A DNA stretch of 64,000 nucleotides, from contig BPGU01000003.1 of NCBI GenBank assembly GCA_026003195.1, positions 1-64,000 of the forward strand. Reading direction: 5' to 3'. Each line of letters begins with the position of its first letter. The first letter of the stretch is position 1. The stretch comes from Armatimonadota bacterium. Its GTDB lineage: Bacteria > Armatimonadota > HRBIN16. Of this stretch, positions 1 through 9,503 are shown piece by piece. The notes beneath the pieces were generated by a model, which saw only the letters and a program-made list of their open reading frames with translations, had not been told where the DNA came from and made no database searches. A program made the position numbers and the translations under genes.

Positions 1-24
1 CATACTCCGGAAGGAGGTAGCAGG

Positions 25-315
25 ATGAGAGCACATATCAAGTACCCGGTGTGGATGAAGCAGGAAGAGTTCCAGCCATTAGCCGCCTTCGGCGGTGAGG
101 TGGCTGGACGAATCGGTCATATCAGCGATTCCGACCTGAACCATATCGGAATCCTGATTGAGACCGATAGCGGAAAGACCGTCTTCATCCACAAGAAGGA
201 AGAAGGCTGGACCGCTATGGTCACAGCCGACGACTGGAAAACCGTAACCCATGAGAATGCCACCGTCAAGATAGAGAACGGCATCCTCCGGGTGGACGTG
301 AAACTGTGGCTGTAG
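25..315 (+). CDS. Island hypothetical protein, 96 aa
   Basis: I do not recognise this protein. The start is set by AAGGAGG at 11-17, seven bases before the ATG. It is a soluble, mixed-charge protein of 96 residues with no signal peptide or membrane segment. Alternating hydrophobic residues between about 37 and 96 (for example ILIETDSGKTVFIHKK) suggest a small beta-rich domain. A GGGGC/GCCCC hairpin follows directly after the stop, so the gene is probably transcribed as its own unit. It is the leftmost complete gene of the island, and the island continues beyond the window edge. Confidence 0.7.
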   Translation: MRAHIKYPVWMKQEEFQPLAAFGGEVAGRIGHISDSDLNHIGILIETDSGKTVFIHKKEEGWTAMVTADDWKTVTHENATVKIENGILRVDVKLWL

Positions 316-320
316 GAGGA

Positions 321-337
321 AGGGGCGAATAGCCCCT
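321..337 (+). terminator. GGGGC/GCCCC hairpin after the 25-315 gene
   Basis: AGGGGC and GCCCCT pair around a five-base loop six bases after the stop codon, followed by CCCTTTCG. The T-tract is weak, so it could be an intrinsic terminator or an RNA-stabilising hairpin. The same kind of hairpin follows several other genes of the island. Confidence 0.55.
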
Positions 338-351
338 CCCTTTCGAAGGAA

Positions 352-370
352 CCTTGACAGAACCCTCACC
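352..370 (+). promoter_or_regulatory. Recurring TTGACA-like island motif
   Basis: CCTTGACAGAACCCTCACC follows the hairpin. Related copies occur at 1771-1789, 1814-1829, 5438-5453 and 6769-6807. TTGACA resembles a -35 box, but no TATAAT-like box lies 16-18 bases downstream. It may be a promoter for another polymerase. The rest of 371-448 is C-rich, with no other clear signal. Confidence 0.35.
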
Positions 371-448
371 TTGTCCCCGCCCACCCGCCCCCAGCCACCG
401 CCTTGAAAAGGAAACAAGGAAAGTAGAAAGTCAGATTTCGGAACCGGG

Positions 449-490
449 ACTTAGATAACCCTGTTCTGGAACAGTGGCTTAGATAGCCAC
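449..490 (+). promoter_or_regulatory. Paired TTAGATA motif with two short hairpins
   Basis: TTAGATA occurs at 451-457 and 479-485. Between them CTGTTC-TG-GAACAG (461-474) is an inverted repeat, and GTGGCT-TAGAT-AGCCAC (474-490) is a second hairpin whose loop carries the second motif copy. A similar pair lies before the RNA-polymerase-like gene (1926-1965). This looks like an operator or promoter for the 521-909 gene pair; the function is inferred. Confidence 0.4.
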
Positions 491-520
491 ACTCTGGAAT
501 TCTCTTAAGGAGGAGAAACG

Positions 521-724
521 ATGGAAGACTACGATTTCATCCCAACTTTCAACAACGCCTCCCTCAACATTGAGGGAGTGCAGCTGGACGTTGACGGGAA
601 CAAGTTCACCCTGCGCATCGAGAAGTTCTCCATCAGCTCCAGCATCGACAGCGACACCATCAAGCGGACCCAAGAGAACCTCATGCAACTCATCAGGGAA
701 ATGGAGGAGAAGATTCAGTCATGA
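521..724 (+). CDS. Island hypothetical protein, 67 aa
   Basis: Small acidic protein of unknown function. AAGGAGGAG sits just upstream of the ATG at 521. The first half (to about residue 36) alternates hydrophobic and polar residues and looks beta-stranded. The last 30 residues (DTIKRTQENLMQLIREMEEK) look like an amphipathic helix that could form a coiled coil. Its stop overlaps the next start (ATGA), so the two proteins are probably translated together and may act together. No homologous family comes to mind. Confidence 0.7.
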   Translation: MEDYDFIPTFNNASLNIEGVQLDVDGNKFTLRIEKFSISSSIDSDTIKRTQENLMQLIREMEEKIQS

Positions 725-909
725 AACACCATGTCACGTTGAAACAGATTGAACGTGAACTCCGAGCGATGGGACTTCTGGAAGACTGGCGTACAGAGCA
801 ATGGATTGCGAAGGCTGAATACAAGGACGAACGCCAGGCACTGAAGGAGTTCCTCCATAACTACGGGCTCTACATGGGAAAGGACGGAAGACTGCACCAG
901 AGCCTGTAG
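721..909 (+). CDS. Island hypothetical protein, 62 aa
   Basis: Unknown 62-residue protein, rich in charged residues and predicted mostly helical (LKQIERELRAMGLLEDWRTE). It is translationally coupled to the upstream gene through a 4-base ATGA overlap. It has no membrane segment and no cysteines. A hairpin follows four bases after the stop, ending a two-gene unit. The size and charge would fit a small regulator or an accessory subunit, but nothing in the sequence shows a function. Confidence 0.7.
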   Translation: MKHHVTLKQIERELRAMGLLEDWRTEQWIAKAEYKDERQALKEFLHNYGLYMGKDGRLHQSL

Positions 910-912
910 TGC

Positions 913-943
913 AAAGAAGGGGCTGATAAGAAAGCCCCTCTTT
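913..943 (+). terminator. AGGGGCT/AGCCCCT hairpin terminator
   Basis: AAAGAAGGGGCT pairs with AGCCCCTCTTT (one mismatch) around an eight-base loop and ends in TTT. It lies directly after the 721-909 stop and matches the hairpin at 1187-1215. Confidence 0.6.
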
Positions 944-961
944 GGAATCAACCTTTACATG
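933..961 (+). repeat. 29-bp exact repeat, copy 1 (terminator arm plus leader)
   Basis: The 29 bases from AGCCCC through TTTGGAATCAACCTTTACATG are identical at 1205-1233. Each copy joins the 3' arm of one gene's hairpin to the ribosome site of the next gene. This gives the island a repeated terminator-leader junction. Confidence 0.8.
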
Positions 962-971
962 GAGGAGAATG

Positions 972-1178
972 ATGAAGGAAGCAAAGGAGGACTTCGTGGG
1001 ACTGTTGAAAGACCTGTGGACATTCCTGCGGCGAGCAGGGAGGGAAGCATCGCAACTAACACGAACCCTCATCGCCATCATGTTCACCGTGTCCCTCGTG
1101 ATCGCATTCCCCGCACTGTACCCGCTGATGCACATTGCAGACCAGGTGCGGTGGGAGGAACTCACGAAGGAAAACTAA
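972..1178 (+). CDS. Island small membrane protein, 68 aa
   Basis: Unknown protein with one predicted transmembrane helix. The start is chosen at the second of two adjacent ATGs (969 and 972), because GGAGGAGA at 961-968 is properly spaced only for the second. The N-terminal half is amphipathic and basic (KEAKEDFVGLLKDLWTFLRR). A hydrophobic helix follows (TLIAIMFTVSLVIAFPALYP), then a short charged tail. The basic N-terminus implies cytoplasmic N-in topology. It lies alone between two copies of the repeated junction, so it is probably monocistronic. Confidence 0.6.
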   Translation: MKEAKEDFVGLLKDLWTFLRRAGREASQLTRTLIAIMFTVSLVIAFPALYPLMHIADQVRWEELTKEN

Positions 1179-1186
1179 CGCACCGG

Positions 1187-1215
1187 AAAGGGGCTGGAAT
1201 AGACAGCCCCTCTTT
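1187..1215 (+). terminator. AGGGGCTG/CAGCCCCT hairpin terminator
   Basis: AAAGGGGCTG pairs with CAGCCCCT around an eight-base loop and is followed by CTTT. It lies eight bases after the 972-1178 stop. Confidence 0.6.
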
Positions 1216-1233
1216 GGAATCAACCTTTACATG
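1205..1233 (+). repeat. 29-bp exact repeat, copy 2
   Basis: Identical to 933-961. Here it is followed by ATAAGGAGGAGAAAC and the ATG at 1249. Two identical noncoding junctions so close together suggest recent duplication of a gene cassette, or selection on the leader sequence. Confidence 0.8.
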
Positions 1234-1248
1234 ATAAGGAGGAGAAAC

Positions 1249-1692
1249 ATGAACGCAAAGGAAGTATTCATCGCCAAGACGGAAAAGAGGGGCAGGGCAA
1301 AGGTACTGCGCATCGCAAAGGCATTCCCACTCTCCAAACTGCTGAACCTGGTAGGATACGAAGTGGAAGCACTGACCTTGAGAGGCGTGGAAGACGGACA
1401 AACCCAGCAAGTGACCGCGAAACCGGAAGAGACGACCGTCATCATCGCCGAAATCGTGTCGACGATGGGACGAAGGAAATCCGTGGCACTGGTGCATGGA
1501 AATGTCGTCTCATACCTCACTCCCACACTCAACGGCTGGAGACCGGCATTGCTGAACGACGGAAGCCGAGTTGTCGAACCCAGCTGGATTGTGGGGGCTT
1601 TCAACGAACCGAACGCGCAAGAACTGATTAGCACCGATGCAACCACGAAACAGGAACCGAAAGCGATCCCTGTGGACGAATTCGCCGACTAA
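1249..1692 (+). CDS. Island hypothetical protein, 147 aa
   Basis: Unknown soluble protein. The frame is open further upstream, but TAAGGAGGAGAAAC immediately before the ATG at 1249 marks the start. The N-terminus is very basic (KTEKRGRAKVLRIAK, residues 9-23), which could contact nucleic acid. Residues 60-100 are rich in valine and isoleucine and look beta-stranded, and the tail is acidic. No catalytic motif is visible. A hairpin follows the stop, so the gene is probably monocistronic. Confidence 0.65.
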   Translation: MNAKEVFIAKTEKRGRAKVLRIAKAFPLSKLLNLVGYEVEALTLRGVEDGQTQQVTAKPEETTVIIAEIVSTMGRRKSVALVHGNVVSYLTPTLNGWRPALLNDGSRVVEPSWIVGAFNEPNAQELISTDATTKQEPKAIPVDEFAD

Positions 1693-1693
1693 C

Positions 1694-1725
1694 AAGGGAA
1701 AGGGGGCGGAACAGCCCCCACCCTT
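1694..1725 (+). terminator. GGGGGC/GCCCCC hairpin
   Basis: GGGGGC (1702-1707) and GCCCCC (1714-1719) form the inner stem, and AAGGG with CCCTT extends it. It follows the 1249-1692 stop directly. The 308 bases up to the next gene hold this hairpin, a repeated block and a paired TTAGATA motif, but no gene. Confidence 0.55.
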
Positions 1726-1757
1726 GCACCGTAGCCACCGACGGGCAGACAGCCCAC

Positions 1758-1830
1758 CCTTTTAGCAACACCCTTCACATAGCACTCCGATAACCTATCC
1801 TTTTAGCAACACACCTCACATAACACACCC
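1758..1830 (+). repeat. Two direct repeats of a TTTTAGCAACAC...TCACATA block
   Basis: CCTTTTAGCAACAC followed by C-T-TCACATA-GCACTCC occurs twice, 41 bases apart (from 1759 and 1800). The second copy is slightly diverged (CCTCACATAACACACC). Both contain the island's recurring motif. They lie 170-240 bases upstream of the RNA-polymerase-like genes and could be promoter or regulator sites. From 1840 to 1915 the strand is T- and C-rich with no further signal. Confidence 0.45.
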
Positions 1831-1925
1831 GAGTACACCGAACATCTTCTCCTCGCTTCGCTTCTTCTCGCTTTGATCTTCTCCTCTCTGATGATATGTC
1901 TCCTCTCCTCTTCAAGGAATGGTCG

Positions 1926-1965
1926 CTTTAGATAATCCTCTTTCGGCTATCTGGCGCTTAGATAG
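1926..1965 (+). promoter_or_regulatory. Paired TTAGATA motif before the polymerase-like operon
   Basis: TTAGATA occurs at 1928-1934 and 1958-1964, 30 bases apart (28 apart in the pair at 449-490). CTATCT and AGATAG form an inverted repeat around GGCGCTT, so the second copy lies in a hairpin arm, as at the other site. The shared layout before two operons suggests a common regulator or polymerase; this is inference. Confidence 0.4.
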
Positions 1966-2000
1966 TCTCGCTCTGCAAAACCTCGTTCAGGAGGTGGAAC

Positions 2001-3272
2001 ATGATCGTTCAGAAGGTGCTTCACACGGTGGCACCAAACCTCGCCGTACCGGATCGCGGAACCATCCTCCACGAAATGGTCACCGGCGAACCAGCACAGC
2101 TGGAAGTCTATGGCGACCTCATCCCCATCCCAAAGCCGAACCTGCCCGTAGACTATATCCAGCTGAACCGGTCCAAACTGCCCGTCGTGCAGCTGCGACC
2201 GCCCTTCACCACGCTCCACCAGATTACCATCGCCAAAGCGAAAGGGGAACCCTATCGGGGACTCCTTCAAGAACTGGCAAGACAGGTAATCGGAGTGGGG
2301 CGCAATCAGGGCGAATACGGTCGAGCACTGCTCCGCACAGCGCAGTATGAACTGCCGTGCGCTTGGGCGAAACTGGTAGGTCATCCGGAAGTGCCGGAAG
2401 GCGAAATCTGGATTACCTTCGGGAAGCCCACCCGCTTGACCGTGTTCCAGCGGTTTCCGCAAGCCAGCAGTTCCTCATGCAGGATCCGCCCGACCCGGAG
2501 AGTGACTAACTATCCGCACAGGGCAATCCTCGTCCATCCGAACACCTTAGTGGAAGACCTGCAAGGCGATTCGGATGGCGATGAGGGATTCGCCGGCTAT
2601 ATCTCAGGCGAGAAACCCGCACCGCGCGTCACCATCGCCCGCAAGATACATTTCGCAGAGTGGGACGTGACGCCGGAAATCCAGCCGAACGCCGAATTCG
2701 ATGACCTGTATTGGGGATTCACCGCAACCCGATACATCGGTCAGGTGATTCAGGCGATATGGGTACTCCAGTATGCCCATGCTGCAAGGACTGGAGACCC
2801 GCAAAAGGCTGCCTGCGAGGTGTGGGATTTCGCCACGGCATTGATTGAACACGTCATGGACGCCCGTAAACTCAAAGCGGAATCCACCTTCGACGTGCGT
2901 CATGCCATCGAATGCATCCGCGGAACCGCCACGCCCGACGAATCTATCCTCAACCTGCCGTATGGGAAGGAGGTGATGAAGAGCGCGGAAGCAATGGCAT
3001 GGATGATGCCCGAAGGCGGCGTGTTCACCGTACTCATGCGCCGAGCACGACCGCGCAGCATCATCCGCCACATCGAAACTCCGCCCGAAGAGCTGCTCAA
3101 ACAGCTCTGGTCGGGCAAACTGGAGGAGGAGTACGATGATCCTGACTTCGCTGGTGATTTCCACGGAGACGTTTCCGAGTATCTCCGACAAACTACCGGC
3201 TGCGGGCTGGCTGATTACAACCCGAACGGGCACGAAACGCTGGTGCCCCGTGAAACTGCTGCCGGAGTATGA
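2001..3272 (+). CDS. Minimal RNA polymerase beta'-like protein (DxDGD double-psi barrel)
   Basis: AGGAGGTGG six bases before the ATG fixes the start; 423 aa. Residues 148-194 match the beta' catalytic barrel in order: VFQRFPQ (148-154) fits the known VLNRxPT, where the Arg contacts the NTP; AILVHP (175-180) fits the IxLHP strand; GDSDGD (189-194) gives D190, D192 and D194, the Mg2+-binding triad of NADFDGD. HP-to-DxDGD spacing is within one residue of bacterial beta'. Upstream, NQGEYGRALL (102-111) resembles KQGRFRQNLL. About 47 residues separate QG from R-x-P, against about 90 in E. coli. No zinc ribbon or clamp is evident. Helices at 240-290 might replace the bridge helix (inference). The gene overlaps the beta-like gene by 137 bases. 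Remote homology is judged by eye. Confidence 0.72.
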   Translation: MIVQKVLHTVAPNLAVPDRGTILHEMVTGEPAQLEVYGDLIPIPKPNLPVDYIQLNRSKLPVVQLRPPFTTLHQITIAKAKGEPYRGLLQELARQVIGVGRNQGEYGRALLRTAQYELPCAWAKLVGHPEVPEGEIWITFGKPTRLTVFQRFPQASSSSCRIRPTRRVTNYPHRAILVHPNTLVEDLQGDSDGDEGFAGYISGEKPAPRVTIARKIHFAEWDVTPEIQPNAEFDDLYWGFTATRYIGQVIQAIWVLQYAHAARTGDPQKAACEVWDFATALIEHVMDARKLKAESTFDVRHAIECIRGTATPDESILNLPYGKEVMKSAEAMAWMMPEGGVFTVLMRRARPRSIIRHIETPPEELLKQLWSGKLEEEYDDPDFAGDFHGDVSEYLRQTTGCGLADYNPNGHETLVPRETAAGV

Positions 3273-4389
3273 TGAGTTCGGATACGTGAAACGTTTCCAT
3301 GTGCTCACCCTGCAAGACCAGTTCGCACGCGCGGACGACAAAAGCGAGTTCATCAACGGGCTGGAAATCGTCATGACACAGAACCAGCTCGAGCAACTCC
3401 GCCGCGAAGTGGAACTGGACCTACCTCGCGACCAGGCACAGCAAGACGACTTCTACTATGTGCGCAAACGCAACGCCGTGCTTGCTGCTATGGACGTGCT
3501 GGGAGCGAACCCGTACATCACCGGTAACTCCCATCCGTTCCGTAAACTGTGCATCAGCGATGACCATTTCCGCACCGTCAATCCCAACTGGGATGCGTTC
3601 GCTGCCCACCGAACCGGACGCAAACTCCGGTCCGCATGGAAGAACGCTATCCCATGGCAGGATGAACGGAAGGAGGAACCGGCATGGGGCATCTGGAAAC
3701 CACTGCGCACCCTCATCGCAGAAACCAATCTGCATGAGGGACCGGTGCATGACGCCATGCTGGTCACTCCAACCGGTATGAGCAAGATGCGTGCGGAAAT
3801 GCCGTTCTCCACCAACATCAAGAAAGTGCGCGACCGCGAACGCAACGAAACGGTCGCCACCACCAACCGCTGGACGGCATACGGACAACTACCGCAACAG
3901 AAAGCGATTGGCGAGTATAAGGTGGAGAACATGACGCTGAAACTGATGGCAGCAAGCGGCATACAAGGCATGACCTTCCTGCTCGAACACGACGTCATCG
4001 TGAACGATGAACCCGTAGACATCATCGTCAGTCCACGTATGATACAGAAGAAATCCGCGTGGACGGTGCTGCTGAACAACAACATCCCACTGGATAAGGT
4101 TCAGGAGCACCTCGTCGAGTTCGAGCTGGAACGACGCACCGCACCAGCAGGATGGAAAGTGGATGAACGACTGCTGGTGCAGAAAGGCGTCGGATTGGTC
4201 GTCACCGAATACTGGGCAACCACCTCACATAATGAGGTGTATTTCGCACGGGACGACCAGACGCTCACGATAAGACCGGAACAACACTTCTGCGCAGGTC
4301 TGCCGTTCGACCCGCTGGAGATGATTGACCTGCGCGAAGTGAACGATTACTGGAATATGGCGAAAGTGCTCATCCAATACTACGAGTAA
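3136..4389 (+). CDS. Minimal RNA polymerase beta-like protein (second double-psi barrel)
   Basis: GGAGGAGGA lies six bases before the ATG, inside the upstream gene; 417 aa. Beta-type motifs occur in order. VHDAMLVTPTG (204-214) fits the known FEDSILVSE, keeping the Asp (D206) but with His for the Glu. KLMAASGIQGM (269-279) fits KMAGRHGNKGV without gaps: K269 corresponds to E. coli K1065, while Q277 replaces K1073. EPVDIIVSPRMIQKKSAW (292-309) fits TPVDIVLNPLGVPSRMNI. TEYWATTSHNEVYFA (357-371) may fit the MEVWALEAYGAAYTL region. Only 63 residues separate D206 and K269, against about 250 in E. coli, so the flap that docks sigma region 4 is missing. Together with the upstream protein it could form a two-barrel catalytic core. 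Activity is inferred. Confidence 0.7.
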   Translation: MILTSLVISTETFPSISDKLPAAGWLITTRTGTKRWCPVKLLPEYDEFGYVKRFHVLTLQDQFARADDKSEFINGLEIVMTQNQLEQLRREVELDLPRDQAQQDDFYYVRKRNAVLAAMDVLGANPYITGNSHPFRKLCISDDHFRTVNPNWDAFAAHRTGRKLRSAWKNAIPWQDERKEEPAWGIWKPLRTLIAETNLHEGPVHDAMLVTPTGMSKMRAEMPFSTNIKKVRDRERNETVATTNRWTAYGQLPQQKAIGEYKVENMTLKLMAASGIQGMTFLLEHDVIVNDEPVDIIVSPRMIQKKSAWTVLLNNNIPLDKVQEHLVEFELERRTAPAGWKVDERLLVQKGVGLVVTEYWATTSHNEVYFARDDQTLTIRPEQHFCAGLPFDPLEMIDLREVNDYWNMAKVLIQYYE

Positions 4390-4399
4390 GGAGGTAAGT

Positions 4400-5014
4400 A
4401 TGAACCCGATCGATATCGCCAAGAACCGCATCTTCCAGCACATCATCCGCTCACAGGCAATCCCGGCTACCAGCCACTGGAAGTTCATGGCGCTGAGCGA
4501 TTGCCTGCCACCGACCGAGAACGGCAAATGCCAGATCGTCGATGAGATGACCGGCATTCCGTTCGAGTTGAGCGTGCCCGAAAAGGTGGAAGCGAACTGG
4601 TTCTATCCCACTCCCGACGGCGTGAACGACAACATGCAGCCCATCCGCCGCCGCGAAGCAGTGCCCGTCAAACAGGTGCTGCTGGGATACGGGCCTGTCC
4701 GAACCCGACAGGGCGATGTGCGCATGCGCGTTGCACTGGCAAAGGTCACCGGAGTGCCGCAGACCACCGGTGTCGTCACCATCAGCGTCGGCGCATACGG
4801 TGCATTCGTCACACCCAATCCGCAAACCGGTCTGTATGACGTCGACCCTGACCTGGTTGCCGCACTGAACCTCAAGATGCATGAGCAGTTCACCAACCTG
4901 CAGCCGATAACGATTGAGGTCAACCAGGGCGAGCAGGCACAGGAGATCGACGTCAAGACACTGCTGAACACCGAGCAGCCCGCAGAACAGACCGGCGAAA
5001 CCAACAACGCGTAA
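4400..5014 (+). CDS. Unknown third protein of the polymerase-like operon, 204 aa
   Basis: Starts ten bases after the beta-like gene behind TAAGGAGG, so it is co-transcribed with it. I do not recognise a family. Residues 1-60 are mixed, with two cysteines (C35, C44). Residues 85-150 are rich in Val, Gly and Thr (GVVTISVGAYGAFVTPNP) and look like a beta domain. The C-terminal 40 residues are acidic and Gln-rich (QGEQAQEIDVK) and probably disordered. Position makes it a candidate accessory subunit, promoter-binding factor or single-strand-binding protein, but no motif proves this. A nine-base-pair hairpin follows its stop and closes the operon. Confidence 0.75.
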   Translation: MNPIDIAKNRIFQHIIRSQAIPATSHWKFMALSDCLPPTENGKCQIVDEMTGIPFELSVPEKVEANWFYPTPDGVNDNMQPIRRREAVPVKQVLLGYGPVRTRQGDVRMRVALAKVTGVPQTTGVVTISVGAYGAFVTPNPQTGLYDVDPDLVAALNLKMHEQFTNLQPITIEVNQGEQAQEIDVKTLLNTEQPAEQTGETNNA

Positions 5015-5031
5015 GATTAGTCCAAATCAAA

Positions 5032-5056
5032 GGGGAGTGGGAGCCAACCACTCCCC
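5032..5056 (+). terminator. Hairpin closing the polymerase-like operon
   Basis: GGGGAGTGG (5032-5040) pairs perfectly with CCACTCCCC (5048-5056) over a seven-base loop, 18 bases after the stop. No T-tract follows, so an ordinary Rho-independent terminator is not certain. Confidence 0.55.
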
Positions 5057-5074
5057 AAGCATAAGGAGGAGAAA

Positions 5075-5398
5075 ATGGTCATGGAACACCGAGAGATCTG
5101 CCAGACGGCGGAGAAGATTCTGCATAAGCCCGTACTCAACGATTCCGACCGCGCATTCCTGGAGATGGCGGCGGATCACCTGCGCAAGGCAATCAACGAC
5201 GACAAGCTGAAGTCCACCGGTCTCGGTGCACTCGCAGGAGGCGCCATCGCCACCATCGCACTCGGACCGTTCGCCATCCTGCCAGCAGCATTAGCAGCTA
5301 TCGCAGGTGGCTCGTTCGGCAAATGGACACACGAGGAAGGAAGCAAATACGAACGCGAACTGCTGGCCAAGATCATCGCCAAACTGAGCAAGCCGTAG
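5075..5398 (+). CDS. Island glycine-zipper membrane protein, 107 aa
   Basis: Unknown protein with AAGGAGGAGAAA directly before the ATG. The N-terminal 48 residues are soluble and helical. Residues 49-88 form a glycine- and alanine-rich hydrophobic stretch (GLGALAGGAIATIALGPF and LPAALAAIAGGSFG) typical of glycine-zipper helices, probably a membrane hairpin. The tail is charged. Such proteins occur among small toxins, holin-like proteins and membrane organisers; nothing here decides which. It is followed by its own hairpin and is probably monocistronic. Confidence 0.65.
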   Translation: MVMEHREICQTAEKILHKPVLNDSDRAFLEMAADHLRKAINDDKLKSTGLGALAGGAIATIALGPFAILPAALAAIAGGSFGKWTHEEGSKYERELLAKIIAKLSKP

Positions 5399-5404
5399 CG
5401 ATAT

Positions 5405-5427
5405 GGGGAGGGGCGAAAGCCCCACCC
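5405..5427 (+). terminator. GGGGC-GAAA-GCCCC hairpin
   Basis: GGGGC (5410-5414) and GCCCC (5419-5423) close a GAAA tetraloop, and flanking GGG and CCC extend the stem. It lies seven bases after the 5075-5398 stop and is followed by TTTCCTT. Confidence 0.6.
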
Positions 5428-5437
5428 TTTCCTTCAT

Positions 5438-5453
5438 CCTTGACATAGCACTC
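5438..5453 (+). promoter_or_regulatory. Recurring motif CCTTGACATAGCACTC
   Basis: Closest copy to the apparent consensus of the island motif (see 352-370, 1771-1829, 6769-6807). It sits just after a terminator hairpin, where a promoter would be expected, but no -10 box follows at normal spacing. Confidence 0.35.
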
Positions 5454-5483
5454 ATCTCAGGTCATCGCTTCTCCTCCAATGCA

Positions 5484-5518
5484 AAAGGGGGCGCGTCATT
5501 TGTGACGATAGCCCCTCT
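5484..5518 (+). terminator. Bulged hairpin AGGGGGC...AGCCCCT
   Basis: An outer GGGG(G)C/GCCCC stem encloses a GTCA-TTTG-TGAC stem-loop. No gene lies between it and the previous hairpin, so it may end a short untranslated RNA or a lost cassette. It is followed by CTCTTTG. Confidence 0.45.
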
Positions 5519-5544
5519 CTTTGAAAGACCATAAGGTGATTGTC

Positions 5545-5603
5545 GGGCGGGGACGGAAAAGCCCCCCATCCTCTCACGCCAGCCATTACGTCCGTCCCCG
5601 CCC
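5545..5603. repeat. 12-bp perfect inverted repeat with 35-base spacer
   Basis: GGGCGGGGACGG at 5545-5556 is the exact reverse complement of CCGTCCCCGCCC at 5592-5603. It lies in the 292-base gap between the 5075-5398 gene and the triplicated membrane proteins. The rest of the gap (5604-5680) is C- and T-rich, with no clear signal until the ribosome site of the next gene. Confidence 0.6.
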
Positions 5604-5690
5604 ATCTTCTTTCTTCTTCTCTCTTCTTCGTTGTCTCTTCCTCTGAATCATCTGTAATACCGTATATGAACACTCTCTCTGGAGGTCGTT

Positions 5691-5999
5691 ATGGATAAGG
5701 AGACACGCAACCGCCTGCACAAGCATCACATAGCCAGCACCGCCATCGCTACGGTGCTGTTCATGATTACGTTCGTCTATGACAGGCCGGTGCTCACATG
5801 GCCGCTCGCACTTCTCATCCTCATCTCCGCATTGGGATTGGGATACATCACCGGCACTTTCTACCATTACGCAGTATACTTTGAGTACTATGATGAGGAG
5901 GAATACCATGCACAGACAGACGAGAGACCGCATGAACCACCACCGCGCGGACAGTATCCTCGTATCCGCCGCACTGGTAGCCATCGTTCTCCTGATTGA
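5691..5999 (+). CDS. Mini membrane protein, paralog 1 of 3, 102 aa
   Basis: Unknown membrane protein with a basic His-rich N-terminus (KETRNRLHKHHIASTAIA), two predicted transmembrane helices (about 17-31 and 37-58) and the signature GYITGTFYHYAVYFEYY (about 50-66). The next two genes share this signature. A Pro- and Arg-rich tail of some 36 residues follows, and its coding DNA overlaps the next gene by 92 bases, so the tail may be only a by-product of the overlap. TCTGGAGG before the ATG is the ribosome site. The conserved Tyr/His cluster probably sits at the membrane surface. Confidence 0.65.
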   Translation: MDKETRNRLHKHHIASTAIATVLFMITFVYDRPVLTWPLALLILISALGLGYITGTFYHYAVYFEYYDEEEYHAQTDERPHEPPPRGQYPRIRRTGSHRSPD

Positions 6000-6135
6000 C
6001 AGGTCTGGCACCGTCTGGAAATTGCTCGAGCTGGTCGTCATCTCACTGGTGCTGGGCTACGTCATCGGTACCGCCTACCACTACATAGTGCACTTTGAGT
6101 ACTATGCACGAGATGAGAATGGACAACAGAAGTAA
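5908..6135 (+). CDS. Mini membrane protein, paralog 2 of 3, 75 aa
   Basis: The start is the ATG at 5908 behind GAGGAGGAATACC; the frame is open further upstream, but that part only shadows paralog 1. The architecture matches paralog 1: basic N-terminus (RQTRDRMNHHRADSI), two hydrophobic segments, and GYVIGTAYHYIVHFEYY at about residues 50-66, then a short charged end. It overlaps paralog 1 by 92 bases in another frame. This shows that the shared core ends soon after the Y-Y motif. Function unknown. Confidence 0.7.
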   Translation: MHRQTRDRMNHHRADSILVSAALVAIVLLIDRSGTVWKLLELVVISLVLGYVIGTAYHYIVHFEYYARDENGQQK

Positions 6136-6156
6136 CACGCTACAGAAGGGAGTACT

Positions 6157-6441
6157 ATGATGAAGAGCGATACTCGAGATGACCTGAGCGAACACCGCAC
6201 CAAAAGCATCACCGTAGCTTCTATACTGGCAGCAATCGCGTTCTCGCTCTACAACCTCAACTTCATCTGGTCAATCATCAAACTTACCCTTTACTGGATA
6301 CTTATCGACATTGTCATCAGTCTGGAACTCAGCTGGAAACTCATTCAGCTTGCCATCGTCTCCATAGGATCGGGGTACATTACCGGCACAATCTATCACC
6401 ACATAGTACGCTTCGTCTACTACAAGAACAAGGAGGTGTAA
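6157..6441 (+). CDS. Mini membrane protein, paralog 3 of 3, 94 aa
   Basis: Third tandem member, preceded by GAAGGGAG. It shares the basic N-terminus (SEHRTKSITVASI), hydrophobic helices and the signature GYITGTIYHHIVRFVYY (about 73-89), ending in KNKEV. It has an extra hydrophobic stretch in the middle (LTLYWILIDIVISLELSW), so it may cross the membrane three times. Three diverged adjacent copies point to duplication followed by specialisation, perhaps as a hetero-oligomeric membrane complex. Function unknown. Confidence 0.7.
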   Translation: MMKSDTRDDLSEHRTKSITVASILAAIAFSLYNLNFIWSIIKLTLYWILIDIVISLELSWKLIQLAIVSIGSGYITGTIYHHIVRFVYYKNKEV

Positions 6442-6444
6442 ACC

Positions 6445-6705
6445 ATGCTGGTCGGACAAGCCCTCAAAGGCGCCATTACCTTCGCACCCAAGATGCTGGT
6501 CAGAGCCGGCGCAAGCATCGCTAAACTCGCCACCAAATCACCACAACTATTGCAAGCCCTCAACCAGGTGGAAGTCAACGTAGAGAAAGAACTCACCCAA
6601 CTCACACTCGTCAAAGAAGGCGATACCTACACACTCGTGGATAACGACTCCGGCCAAGTCGTACTCACCCTCAAGATCGAAGAGAACACCACACCGAACC
6701 CATAA
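6445..6705 (+). CDS. Island hypothetical protein, 86 aa
   Basis: Starts three bases after paralog 3 behind AAGGAGG, so it belongs to the same operon. The first 40 residues are an amphipathic, Ala- and Lys-rich helix (LKGAITFAPKMLVRAGASIA) that could lie on a membrane. The second half looks beta-stranded (DTYTLVDNDSGQVVLTLKI) and ends in Pro and Asn. The family is unknown. Its place suggests that it works with the mini membrane proteins. Confidence 0.65.
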   Translation: MLVGQALKGAITFAPKMLVRAGASIAKLATKSPQLLQALNQVEVNVEKELTQLTLVKEGDTYTLVDNDSGQVVLTLKIEENTTPNP

Positions 6706-6931
6706 CACATAACACCTAACAAACACAAACCGAACACGACGTACATAACGCTCGACAAACCCGTATACCACTCACATAACGCTCGACATAGCACTCGACA
6801 GACCACCCGCCAAATGCACACAACTCACCCGTAATCAACAGATCACCAGTAAGGAGAAGAGACCAAACGCGACGAAGGCTGCGAAAACAAGGTGGGGCGG
6901 GGCTTGCATCGTTCATCCACCCTCCTCTTCA
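6706..6931 (+). promoter_or_regulatory. Gene-free leader with clustered ACATA-CNCTC motifs
   Basis: No credible gene. The upper strand is A- and C-rich. CACTCACATAACGCTC (6769-6784) and CTCGACATAGCACTCGACAG (from 6782) are overlapping copies of the island's recurring motif, and a weaker copy lies near 6741 (TACATAACGCTCGAC). The region leads into the tandem repeat at 6932. It could be a promoter cluster or part of an origin or partition site. Confidence 0.35.
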
Positions 6932-7412
6932 CTGTACCCGGCCCACGCCAACCCTTTCTCAAAGCCGCCCTCCCTCGCACTGTACCCGGCCCACGCCAAC
7001 CTTTCCTAGAGCCTGCCTCCTCTTCACTGTACCCGGCCCACGCCAACCCTTTCTCAAAGCCGCCCTCCCTCGCACTGTACCCGGCCCACGCCAACCTTTC
7101 CTAGAGCCTGCCTTCTCTTCGCTGTACCCAACCCACGCCAACCTTTCCTAGAGCCTACCTCCTCTTCGCTGTACCTTTCTCACGCCAACCTTTTCTCAGA
7201 GCCTGCCTTCTCTTCGCTGTACCCAACCCACGCCAACCTTTCCTAGAACCTGCCTTCCCTGTGCTGTACAAAACCCACGCCAACTCTCTCTCAAAGCCAA
7301 CCTCTTCTACACTATACCTAACTCACGTCAACCTTTTCCTAAAGCCGCCCTACTTTTCGCTGTACATCACTCTCGTCAACCCTTTTCTGGAGTCGGCTTT
7401 CATCACACTGTA
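6932..7412. repeat. Tandem array, about 11 units of 47-48 bp
   Basis: CTGTAC or a close variant starts each unit at 6932, 6980, 7027, 7075, 7122, 7169, 7217, 7264, 7312, 7360 and 7408. The first units share CCCGGCCCACGCCAACC after CTGTAC. Two subtypes alternate at first: one continues CTTTCTCAAAGCCGCC, the other TTTCCTAGAGCCTGCC, so the oldest visible period is about 95 bp. Copies decay towards the right. The period is not a multiple of three and there are no spacers, so it is neither a protein repeat nor CRISPR. An iteron, partition or recombination site is possible. Confidence 0.85.
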
Positions 7413-7642
7413 ACTCACTATCGTTCCAGAGTTTGCTATGCTGTATCCGTTCCTCATCCTTTCCTTCCTGGCTTATCGTATACTGTGTTGTACCTATCTC
7501 ATGTTAGTTCTACTTCTTTCTGCATTCGTTAACTCTTCCCTTCTTCGTTATCTCATTGGTATCATACTTCTCTCATTTGGCTGTATTCGAGGATAGGTGC
7601 AAGCTTATCCTCTCTCATACCAACATAAGGAGGTGATTTCCA
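7413..7642 (+). promoter_or_regulatory. T-rich gene-free region with hairpin before the 7643 gene
   Basis: About 230 bases without a gene, T-rich on this strand, beginning with the last decayed repeat relics (CTGTAT at 7441). GAGGATA (7589-7595) and TATCCTC (7606-7612) form a perfect hairpin 30 bases before the start codon at 7643. It could be an operator or a leader structure. AAGGAGGTGA at 7627-7636 is the ribosome site. Confidence 0.4.
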
Positions 7643-8047
7643 TTGGTAGAACATCTGGCAAAGCTGTATGGTTTCCTGCTGCGGCGTATTGCTCAGGCAT
7701 GGAAGGATCTGCTGGCTCAGTGGGGAGTTCAGTGGTCTGTAGTTGCGGAGGTTCAGTCTTCCGCTTCTACGGTATTCATTGAACTCTGCCGTCATGTGCC
7801 TTCGAGCTTTGTGAGGACTGGCAAGGTTCCTCCGGGCTTGAAGGAGATGGCTGTAGATCTGGTTCAGCTGTACGTTCAGGCGCTGGAAGCCAGTTATGCA
7901 GAGTGGAAGAAGACAGGGCTGGACTTTACTGCTTCTCAGGTTAAGGCTGGTGCCGACAACCTTTTCATTCAGCTCTGTCGGAACTATCTGGATGTAGTGG
8001 AAGACTTACCGTATCAGGTAAGGAAGGAGGTGGAAGTGGAGGTTTAG
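7643..8047 (+). CDS. Helical hypothetical protein with internal repeat, 134 aa
   Basis: Starts at TTG behind a full AAGGAGGTGA site. The protein looks all-helical and soluble, with many Val, Leu, Trp and Lys. It contains an internal duplication: SASTVFIELCRHVPSSF (about 40-56) and GADNLFIQLCRNYLDVV (about 103-119) share FI-x-LCR. The helix-only look and length recall phasin-like or apolipoprotein-like coat proteins, but this is a weak guess. Base composition is less C-rich than the genes to its left. A strong hairpin follows the stop. It is the last gene before the tRNA-like sequence. Confidence 0.6.
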   Translation: MVEHLAKLYGFLLRRIAQAWKDLLAQWGVQWSVVAEVQSSASTVFIELCRHVPSSFVRTGKVPPGLKEMAVDLVQLYVQALEASYAEWKKTGLDFTASQVKAGADNLFIQLCRNYLDVVEDLPYQVRKEVEVEV

Positions 8048-8055
8048 GATGAGAA

Positions 8056-8091
8056 GGGGAAGGCGGGACTGGGTAGCGGTCTGCCTTCCCC
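8056..8091 (+). terminator. GGGGAAGGC/GCCTTCCCC hairpin
   Basis: Nine-base perfect stem (8056-8064 with 8083-8091) shortly after the 7643-8047 stop. It lacks a T-tract but is the strongest hairpin in the area. Confidence 0.6.
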
Positions 8092-8259
8092 ACAAACCCT
8101 CTTGCACCCTCCCTTCATCCTGTGAGATTTCTCTTGCAAGTTGCGCGGGATTTGCAGGAGTCTTGCAGGCGCTTGTAGAAAGGTGGAAACTAAGGCAGAG
8201 CGACATACCTACAGGTTGTGGTGGGGCGCAAGCGATAACACCACATATAGTAGTCATTT
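8092..8259. other. Gene-free strip with clustered TTGCA words before the tRNA-like sequence
   Basis: No gene. CTTGCA or TTTGCA recurs near 8100, 8131, 8151 and 8162, with TTGCGC and CTTGTA variants among them, at roughly 10-20 base spacing in 8131-8176. TTGTGGTG (8216-8223) and CACCACA (8239-8245) form a hairpin just before the tRNA-like sequence. Arm-type recombinase sites next to an attachment site would look like this, but no integrase is in view. Confidence 0.3.
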
Positions 8260-8334
8260 GGTCGGATGGTGCAACGGTAAGATGCATCGTTGACAACGAG
8301 GAGGTCAGTGGTTCGAATCCACTACCGCCCACCA
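8260..8334 (+). tRNA. Degenerate tRNA-Val(GAC)-like sequence
   Basis: The 3' half is canonical: loop TTGACAA gives anticodon GAC, the variable loop is AGGTC, the T-arm AGTGG-TTCGAAT-CCACT is perfect, and ACCGCCC plus A and an encoded CCA complete the end. U8, A14, G18, G19, A21 and U33 positions are also present. The 5' half pairs badly: acceptor GGTCGGA matches only five of seven, the D-stem GTGC/AGAT only two of four (one a wobble), and the anticodon stem has one mismatch. It may be an unusual tRNA or an attachment-site relic carrying a true tRNA 3' end. Confidence 0.5.
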
Positions 8335-8378
8335 TTTAGTTTGGTCTCCTCATTGTCGACGAGGTGGTGGATCCTTTC

Positions 8379-9503
8379 TCACTGCGTGTAGTTGTGGAAG
8401 AGCGCCAGACACTCCTTCAACTGCTCCCGAATGGGAATGTGCTGCGGGCAGTGCTGTTCGCACTCGCCACACTCCAGACAGGCATCCGCCTTTTTACCCT
8501 TTACCCACCGTGAGCCGATAGCGTTGTAGTGCTCTCGCGCGTAATCCTTCAAGCCGTACACCCGGTAGTAGTTCATCGCCTGGAAGATGTGCGAGATGTT
8601 CACCTCCTGCGGACAATGCGGCAAGCAGTAGTTACAACCGGTGCAGTAGAGGTCTGCCAATCGCTTGTTCTCGTCCATCGCGGCGTTGATAGCGGCGACC
8701 TCTTCCGGGCTAAGAGGTGACATGTTGGAGGCTATCGCCGCGTTCTCCTCTACCTGCTCGATAGCGCTCATGCCCGACAGTGCACAGTCCACATTGCGGT
8801 TGGCAAACACAAAGCGCAGAGCCAGCTCCGCACTGCTGTGTACACGGATGCCCAACCGCTCAGCGGTCTCCCGAGGCAACCCAGCCAGTCTGCCGCCGCC
8901 GACAGGACCCATCACCACCGTGCCCAGACCCTTCGCTTTGGCGTATGCCAGCGCCTCCTCATTGGCGCGGTCGAGCAGGTTGTACTGGCAGAGGACGGAC
9001 GAGAAGATGCCCAGGTCTATCAGTTGCATCATCACCTCGGGCTTGTCGTGGAAGGAGAAGGAGATGTGTCGTATCAGCCCTTCCTCCTTCGCGCGCAGCG
9101 CCTCTCGGATGAATTCATCACGCCGTTCGTGTTTCAGAAACCATTCGCCGATGCCGTGGAAATGATAGAAATCGATATGGTCTGTGTCCAGCTTGCGCAG
9201 CTGTATCTCCAGCAGTTCGCGATAGCCCTTTTCATTACCGATGGGGTACTTGGTGGAAACGTATACCTTATCGCGCCAGCCCTTCAAAGCTTTCCCAACC
9301 ACGATTTCGCTTTGCCCGTCGCAGTAGAACCAGGCGGTGTCTACATAGTTCACCCCCAGTTCGAAAGCGCGATGAAGCATGGCTATGGACTTCTCTTCGT
9401 CGACCACCCTCTGACCGTTTTTCTCGGTCATAGGCAGTCGCATCGCGCCAAAACCCAGCCTCGAGATGCGGATTCCCGTGTTGCCAAAGTCTCTGTACTC
9501 CAT
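8379..9503 (-). CDS. Aldo/keto reductase with C-terminal 4Fe-4S domain
   Basis: 374 aa. The ATG at 9503 is preferred over the GTG nine bases upstream, because AGGTGG is then well spaced. The AKR barrel carries the catalytic Asp55, Tyr60, Lys85 and His (YVDTAWFY, STKYPIG, FYHFHGIG). The last 95 residues carry two ferredoxin-like clusters, CTGCNYCLPHCP and CLECGECEQHCP. This fusion defines a known AKR subfamily, probably reducing sugar or quinone-like substrates with electrons passed through the clusters. It is cytoplasmic. An operator-like palindrome shared with the LacI gene lies in its promoter, so sugar-responsive repression is likely. Confidence 0.9.
   Translation of the reverse strand: MEYRDFGNTGIRISRLGFGAMRLPMTEKNGQRVVDEEKSIAMLHRAFELGVNYVDTAWFYCDGQSEIVVGKALKGWRDKVYVSTKYPIGNEKGYRELLEIQLRKLDTDHIDFYHFHGIGEWFLKHERRDEFIREALRAKEEGLIRHISFSFHDKPEVMMQLIDLGIFSSVLCQYNLLDRANEEALAYAKAKGLGTVVMGPVGGGRLAGLPRETAERLGIRVHSSAELALRFVFANRNVDCALSGMSAIEQVEENAAIASNMSPLSPEEVAAINAAMDENKRLADLYCTGCNYCLPHCPQEVNISHIFQAMNYYRVYGLKDYAREHYNAIGSRWVKGKKADACLECGECEQHCPQHIPIREQLKECLALFHNYTQ

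Follow-up and report, generated by a model that had tools for sequence, protein, structure and literature searches.

A tandem array of 47-48 bp units inside the right end of a tRNA-integrated prophage of an Armatimonadota bacterium

Intergenic minisatellites (VNTR) of bacteria and phages are built from head-to-tail units of about 10-100 bp, and their copy number varies among close relatives. Iteron origins and the parS-type centromere arrays of temperate phages and plasmids likewise consist of tandem non-coding direct repeats carried in a mobile element, as does the array described here. The sequences on which Rho is loaded (rut sites) are C-rich, G-poor stretches (C>G bubbles), and in E. coli strong Rho terminators are found upstream of prophage genes and tRNA genes (PMC9160355). 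In B. subtilis, Rut sequences form no stable structure and are enriched in prophages, and no set of descriptors reliably tells Rut from Rut-less sequence (PMC12350095).

The DNA analysed here (the window, 64,000 nucleotides) is the start of contig C3 in a 29-contig genome, and it carries eleven head-to-tail units of 47-48 bp in a non-coding spacer (Table 1). In our estimate the chances are about even that the array is an ordinary prophage minisatellite with no sequence-specific job. A Rho-loading zone, predicted from the composition of the spacer, would be the best functional rival and is the main one that we keep beside this verdict.

The prophage and its attachment site

Contig C7 (35,164 bp) begins as the reverse complement of the left end of the window at 100% identity and beyond it carries sigma-factor-like and primase-like genes as well as those for a large terminase and a portal protein. 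The "island" of the sequence-only reading is a large tailed prophage integrated in a tRNA gene. The C7 match ends at 8290, inside tRNA-Val(GAC). The 39-bp tRNA 3' half that follows has one further copy in the same genome, at the extreme end of contig C2, and occurs as a single copy in six other genomes of the genus, where it is preceded by the full host tRNA 5' half, while the 5' half in the window is a different, phage-side sequence. Since the host 5' half has been replaced in the window and is intact in the relatives, position 8290 lies at the right attachment junction (attR). The array is located about 0.84-1.36 kb inside the prophage from the crossover region, so that the earlier placement of the repeats close to the edge of the element holds, the edge being an attR in tRNA-Val at a distance of ~1 kb.

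Several further features surround the junction. The host contig on the attL side stops at the tRNA core in both host genomes (end of C2; C4/C6 of genome G005, another species of the genus), whereas the attR side is assembled through (window 8256-8340; C7:1), and from these contig ends integrated and excised forms of the prophage may coexist. On its phage side, attR looks like a degenerate 5' half of a tRNA (GGTCGGATGGTGCAACGGTAAGATGCATCGT). In the host flank just 3' of the tRNA (~8345-8370) there is a second anticodon-arm palindrome (CCTCGTTGTCAACGAGGAGG-like), found likewise in G005, G009 and G003, which is perhaps an old attachment remnant. Arm-type integrase sites were considered for the array and rejected, as no copy of its unit was noticed among the 240 bp beside the core, where TTGCAGG-like repeats were seen by eye instead.

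The spacer separates orf86 from orf134, the two genes that close the rightward run of the prophage, and is the longest intergenic gap in C7 (35 kb of known phage) once a spurious ORF over the repeats, at which the automatic gene calls split it, is set aside. The predicted fold of orf134 is all-helical (pLDDT 82) and had no structural relative at E<=0.001, and neither orf134 nor orf86 gave anything significant against Pfam and PHROGs. Downstream of orf134 a hairpin without a T-run was read by eye at ~8058-8093. Left of orf86 lie three consecutive small ORFs of membrane type (5691-6441); the first and third are related (32% identity, E=3e-11), with a similar G-Y-x-x-G-T-x-Y-H motif in the second. 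Elsewhere on the minus strand of C7, intergenic hairpins of a GGGGC-GAAA-GCCCC type with a conserved tail, often with AACCTTGACA, are repeated ahead of successive genes (C7:7045-9815, including window 300-1250) and are perhaps terminator-promoter units of the phage. A 2049-aa phage protein (C7:10472-16621, minus strand) has parts matching one family annotated as phosphatase, one DprA-like family and an uncharacterised family of phages. Several long hairpins follow one another over ~240 apparently non-coding bases (C7:19441-19680, minus strand, predicted fold -127 kcal/mol), a stretch with no Rfam match.

Table 1. Array, spacer and neighbouring features (window positions)
Feature	Position	Strand	Remarks
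Prophage right end	1-8290	+	identical to C7:1-8290 reversed
orf86, 86 aa, left of spacer	6445-6705	+	no family match
Whole non-coding spacer, 937 bp	6706-7642	+	C-rich, G-poor up to ~7560
Array unit starts, u1-u11	6932, 6980, 7027, 7075, 7122, 7169, 7217, 7264, 7312, 7360, 7408
Array left part, young: u1-u4 = A,B,A,B, two 95-bp dimers	6932-7121	.	u1=u3, u2/u4 96%; differs in G005
Array right part, older, decaying: u5-u11	7122-7452	.	u11 identity 30-46%; profile match to 7452; G005 identical to 7420
orf134, 134 aa, right of spacer	7643-8047	+	predicted four-helix bundle; homolog in phage C5
tRNA-Val(GAC)-like chimera = attR	8264-8334	+	phage 5' half, host 3' half from 8291

Units of the array and their variation

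TRF finds a tandem array at 6920-7365 with periods of 47, 95 and 142, whereas shuffles of 6701-7650 yield any TRF array in 2 of 200 cases. The eleven units span 6932-7452 with a start-to-start spacing of 47 or 48 bp, and identity between subtypes A and B is 75-79%. In the unit alignment u1 and u3 are identical and u2 and u4 nearly so, with the subtypes alternating at the left. Identity to the other units falls to ~60% for u10 and lower still for u11. A profile built from the units detects all eleven, extends u11 to 7452 (E=7e-4) and finds none further right. The number and length of the units, the alternation at the left and the decay toward the right are thus as the sequence-only reading had described them, and of the span that it gave (6932-7412) the left start stands while the right edge is nearer 7452. 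The array is judged non-coding, as that reading also held, because its 47/48 period is not a codon multiple (not divisible by 3) and the ORFs running through the repeats (60-83 aa) have no other support; a coding-repeat reading was rejected on the same grounds.

In G005 the same prophage occupies the same tRNA site. The phage DNA of the two is 98-99% identical and the host flank 85.7%, indicating that the phage moved recently. The array interval as assembled is 530 bp in the window and 440 bp in G005, 90 bp less, so that copy number varies between these close relatives. Units u5-u11 are letter-identical up to 7420 and the differences are confined to the left units, where the second unit of G005 is a distinct 52-bp variant, requiring more than one left-end event. 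This comparison of two copies (window and G005) supports a change at the left end only, by growth or loss, and does not fix the direction; together with the near-identical left dimers, it favours the one-end growth by a dimer that had been proposed.

Outside this prophage the array was not encountered. It is absent from the rest of its own genome and from elsewhere in 291 genomes of the phylum, and the unit profile gave no further site in the window, C7, C5 or C6. Pattern scans, which needed an exact match and miss strongly diverged arrays, did not find it in GTDB genomes, nor was it found among viral contigs, phage records and plasmids (records of the own genome may be absent from some of these collections). 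Six viral-contig matches to the unit pattern were discarded as isolated chance matches with the array absent, and a 47-bp match of the left flank in genome G081 lies inside a coding gene with no array. A general satellite was rejected, since no copies were found at unrelated chromosomal sites; their presence there was what the earlier interpretation had named as fatal to itself.

Variation among the array columns is somewhat more uneven than by chance (p=0.03), but no clustering of conserved columns reaches significance (p=0.19-0.46). For the apparent core CTGTAC-N6-CACGCCAACC, scored in old units and limited to columns invariant in young units, changes are not significantly fewer than in the remaining invariant columns (p=0.37), which gives no indication of a sequence-specific binding site. 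In the right units C>T (32) and G>A (9) substitutions compare with 9 T>C and 4 A>G. Per-site rates are 0.23 for C>T and 0.25 for G>A, and in the absence of a strand bias strand-specific cytosine deamination was rejected as the source of the C-to-T gradient; the decay of the units looks like ordinary GC-to-AT drift. The spacer is G-poor beyond the array too, the bases at 7413-7560 including 20 G in 148 (p=3e-4 vs 26%).

A second large phage in the same genome, on contig C5 (202 kb), is partly syntenic with C7 (terminase 43% identical) and carries an orf134 homolog (E=2e-14), with no such spacer beside it. Contig C8 was considered as a missing part of the prophage and rejected as a different phage. 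C5 has features of its own. A CRISPR array of at least 18 repeats lies at ~188.0-189.3 kb, and 16 of its spacers have no significant match in the window, C7 or C6. Two GCC-rich non-coding arrays with a period of 47-49 bp (C5:196433-196700 and 197474-197831) stand on either side of one gene; in its product a ParB-like motif was seen by eye (VDGAHRREAF), and Pfam gave no match.

Possible roles of the array

As an ordinary minisatellite, the array would have gained or lost units at its left end by replication slippage or by unequal recombination between near-identical left units, a recent duplication of the A-B dimer having produced the matching pairs u1=u3 and u2≈u4. A unit too divergent to recombine would then decay by ordinary GC-to-AT mutation, and the array would be tolerated because the spacer is untranslated. 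We consider it probably neutral, with a modest chance of a function based on composition. Against a plain minisatellite stand the longest gap in a compact phage (35 kb), the G-poor flank and the uneven columns, and the composition may be maintained. The functional reading that makes most of this composition is a Rho-loading (rut) zone, a tentative possibility in which the spacer RNA, nearly 800 nt that would be C-rich, G-poor, unstructured and untranslated, lets host Rho load and end or weaken transcription ahead of orf134 and the attachment site, with repeat gain or loss altering the length of the zone. The array plus strand is 44% C and 12% G. Of 3,454 C>G bubbles on both strands of a 90.9 kb path, that of the spacer has the greatest area (~780 nt, mean %C-%G 25), a property kept in G005, and C/G is at least 3 in 91% of the 78-nt windows of the array vs 1% elsewhere on the same strand. 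The sense RNA is less structured than 100 of 100 shuffles (z=+2.4), no hairpin-plus-T-run terminator was found within 5400-8400, and the host genome carries rho (E=6e-193), so that the composition and lack of structure of a Rho-dependent terminator are predicted for the transcript from sequence properties, in a host that encodes Rho. However, other parts of this phage have like bubbles within coding sequence, and in phage C5 such bubbles lie on the strand opposite G-rich genes, so that composition alone is not specific; phage C5 is without the zone, and the hairpin that follows orf134 implies that the array may be inside an operon, not at its end. It is doubtful that the array is both, that is, a Rho-loading zone in the form of an expandable minisatellite in which unit gain or loss would tune read-through from the rightward genes into the last gene and the attachment site. 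If the composition is functional, repeat copy number would adjust a Rho-dependent terminator.

The sequence-only reading had suggested a partition, replication or recombination site, a proposal that finds no support: core conservation is not significant, there are no dispersed copies, no partition protein was recognised in the known 35 kb, and the relative phage is without the spacer. A replication origin or maintenance site, in which replication would start near iteron-like units, is unlikely, and the compositional switch at the array leaves it a weak possibility. Over the known 35 kb the cumulative (G+T)-(A+C) walk reaches its lowest point at 7382, the third-position skews change sign from one side of the array to the other (orf86, GC3 -0.53 and AT3 +0.75; orf134, +0.52 and -0.43), and A+T climbs to 57% just right of the repeats. 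This signal is weak because attR follows after only ~0.9 kb on the right, and the skews lack a simple two-arm pattern. By the pattern used there are single-mismatch sites but no exact DnaA box, the 47-48 bp units, in which no core is significantly conserved, are unlike classical iterons, and the all-helical bundle of the neighbouring orf134 has no replication-protein match; in the phage as far as C7 covers it, neither orf134 nor orf86 was recognised as an adjacent replication initiator by Pfam, PHROGs or fold. The array is quite improbable as a partition, attachment-arm, packaging or regulatory-protein binding array, even though tandem non-coding repeats ~1 kb from an attachment core would suit such a role: no partition (ParB/ParR-type) gene was recognised in the known 35 kb, a portion of a much larger phage, the terminase lies at a distance of 28 kb, and the unit motif, whose core conservation is not significant, has no other sites in the known phage. 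Very improbable, finally, is a structured non-coding RNA or G-quadruplex array. Two-quartet G-quadruplex-like runs (GGTTGGCGTGGGTTGGG and variants) are present on the minus strand in six units but are missing from u6 and u8-u11, the fold z is only -1.1 for the minus strand and of the opposite sign for the plus strand, and the array has no Rfam match.

Comparison with known systems

Iteron and parS arrays differ from the present array in that here no core is significantly conserved, no Rep or ParB gene is seen alongside, and the units are longer and vary between 47 and 48 bp. The closest named terminase is that of Moorella phage MTATph1 (OR602862), at 35% identity. MTATph1 is, like this phage, large and tailed, and has an integrase beside a tRNA gene, but its genome is without an array of 47-48 bp period; the unit, sought in related elements as had been proposed, was found in the G005 prophage and not in C5. 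With the Rho-dependent terminators and rut sites of E. coli and B. subtilis (PMC9160355, PMC12350095) the spacer shares a long C>G bubble, a predicted unstructured sense RNA, a prophage setting and a nearby tRNA gene, whereas the candidate zone, predicted from sequence, is made of tandem repeats and belongs to an Armatimonadota host. Relative to known VNTR-type repeats the unit is unmatched in the collections searched, and the array lies next to an attachment site, in a large phage without a close named relative. With the intergenic minisatellites of bacteria and phages it nevertheless shares head-to-tail non-coding units, a copy number that changes between close relatives, and homogenised and decayed ends, and as an ordinary minisatellite it would be a fast-changing marker with which to trace one prophage across species of the genus.
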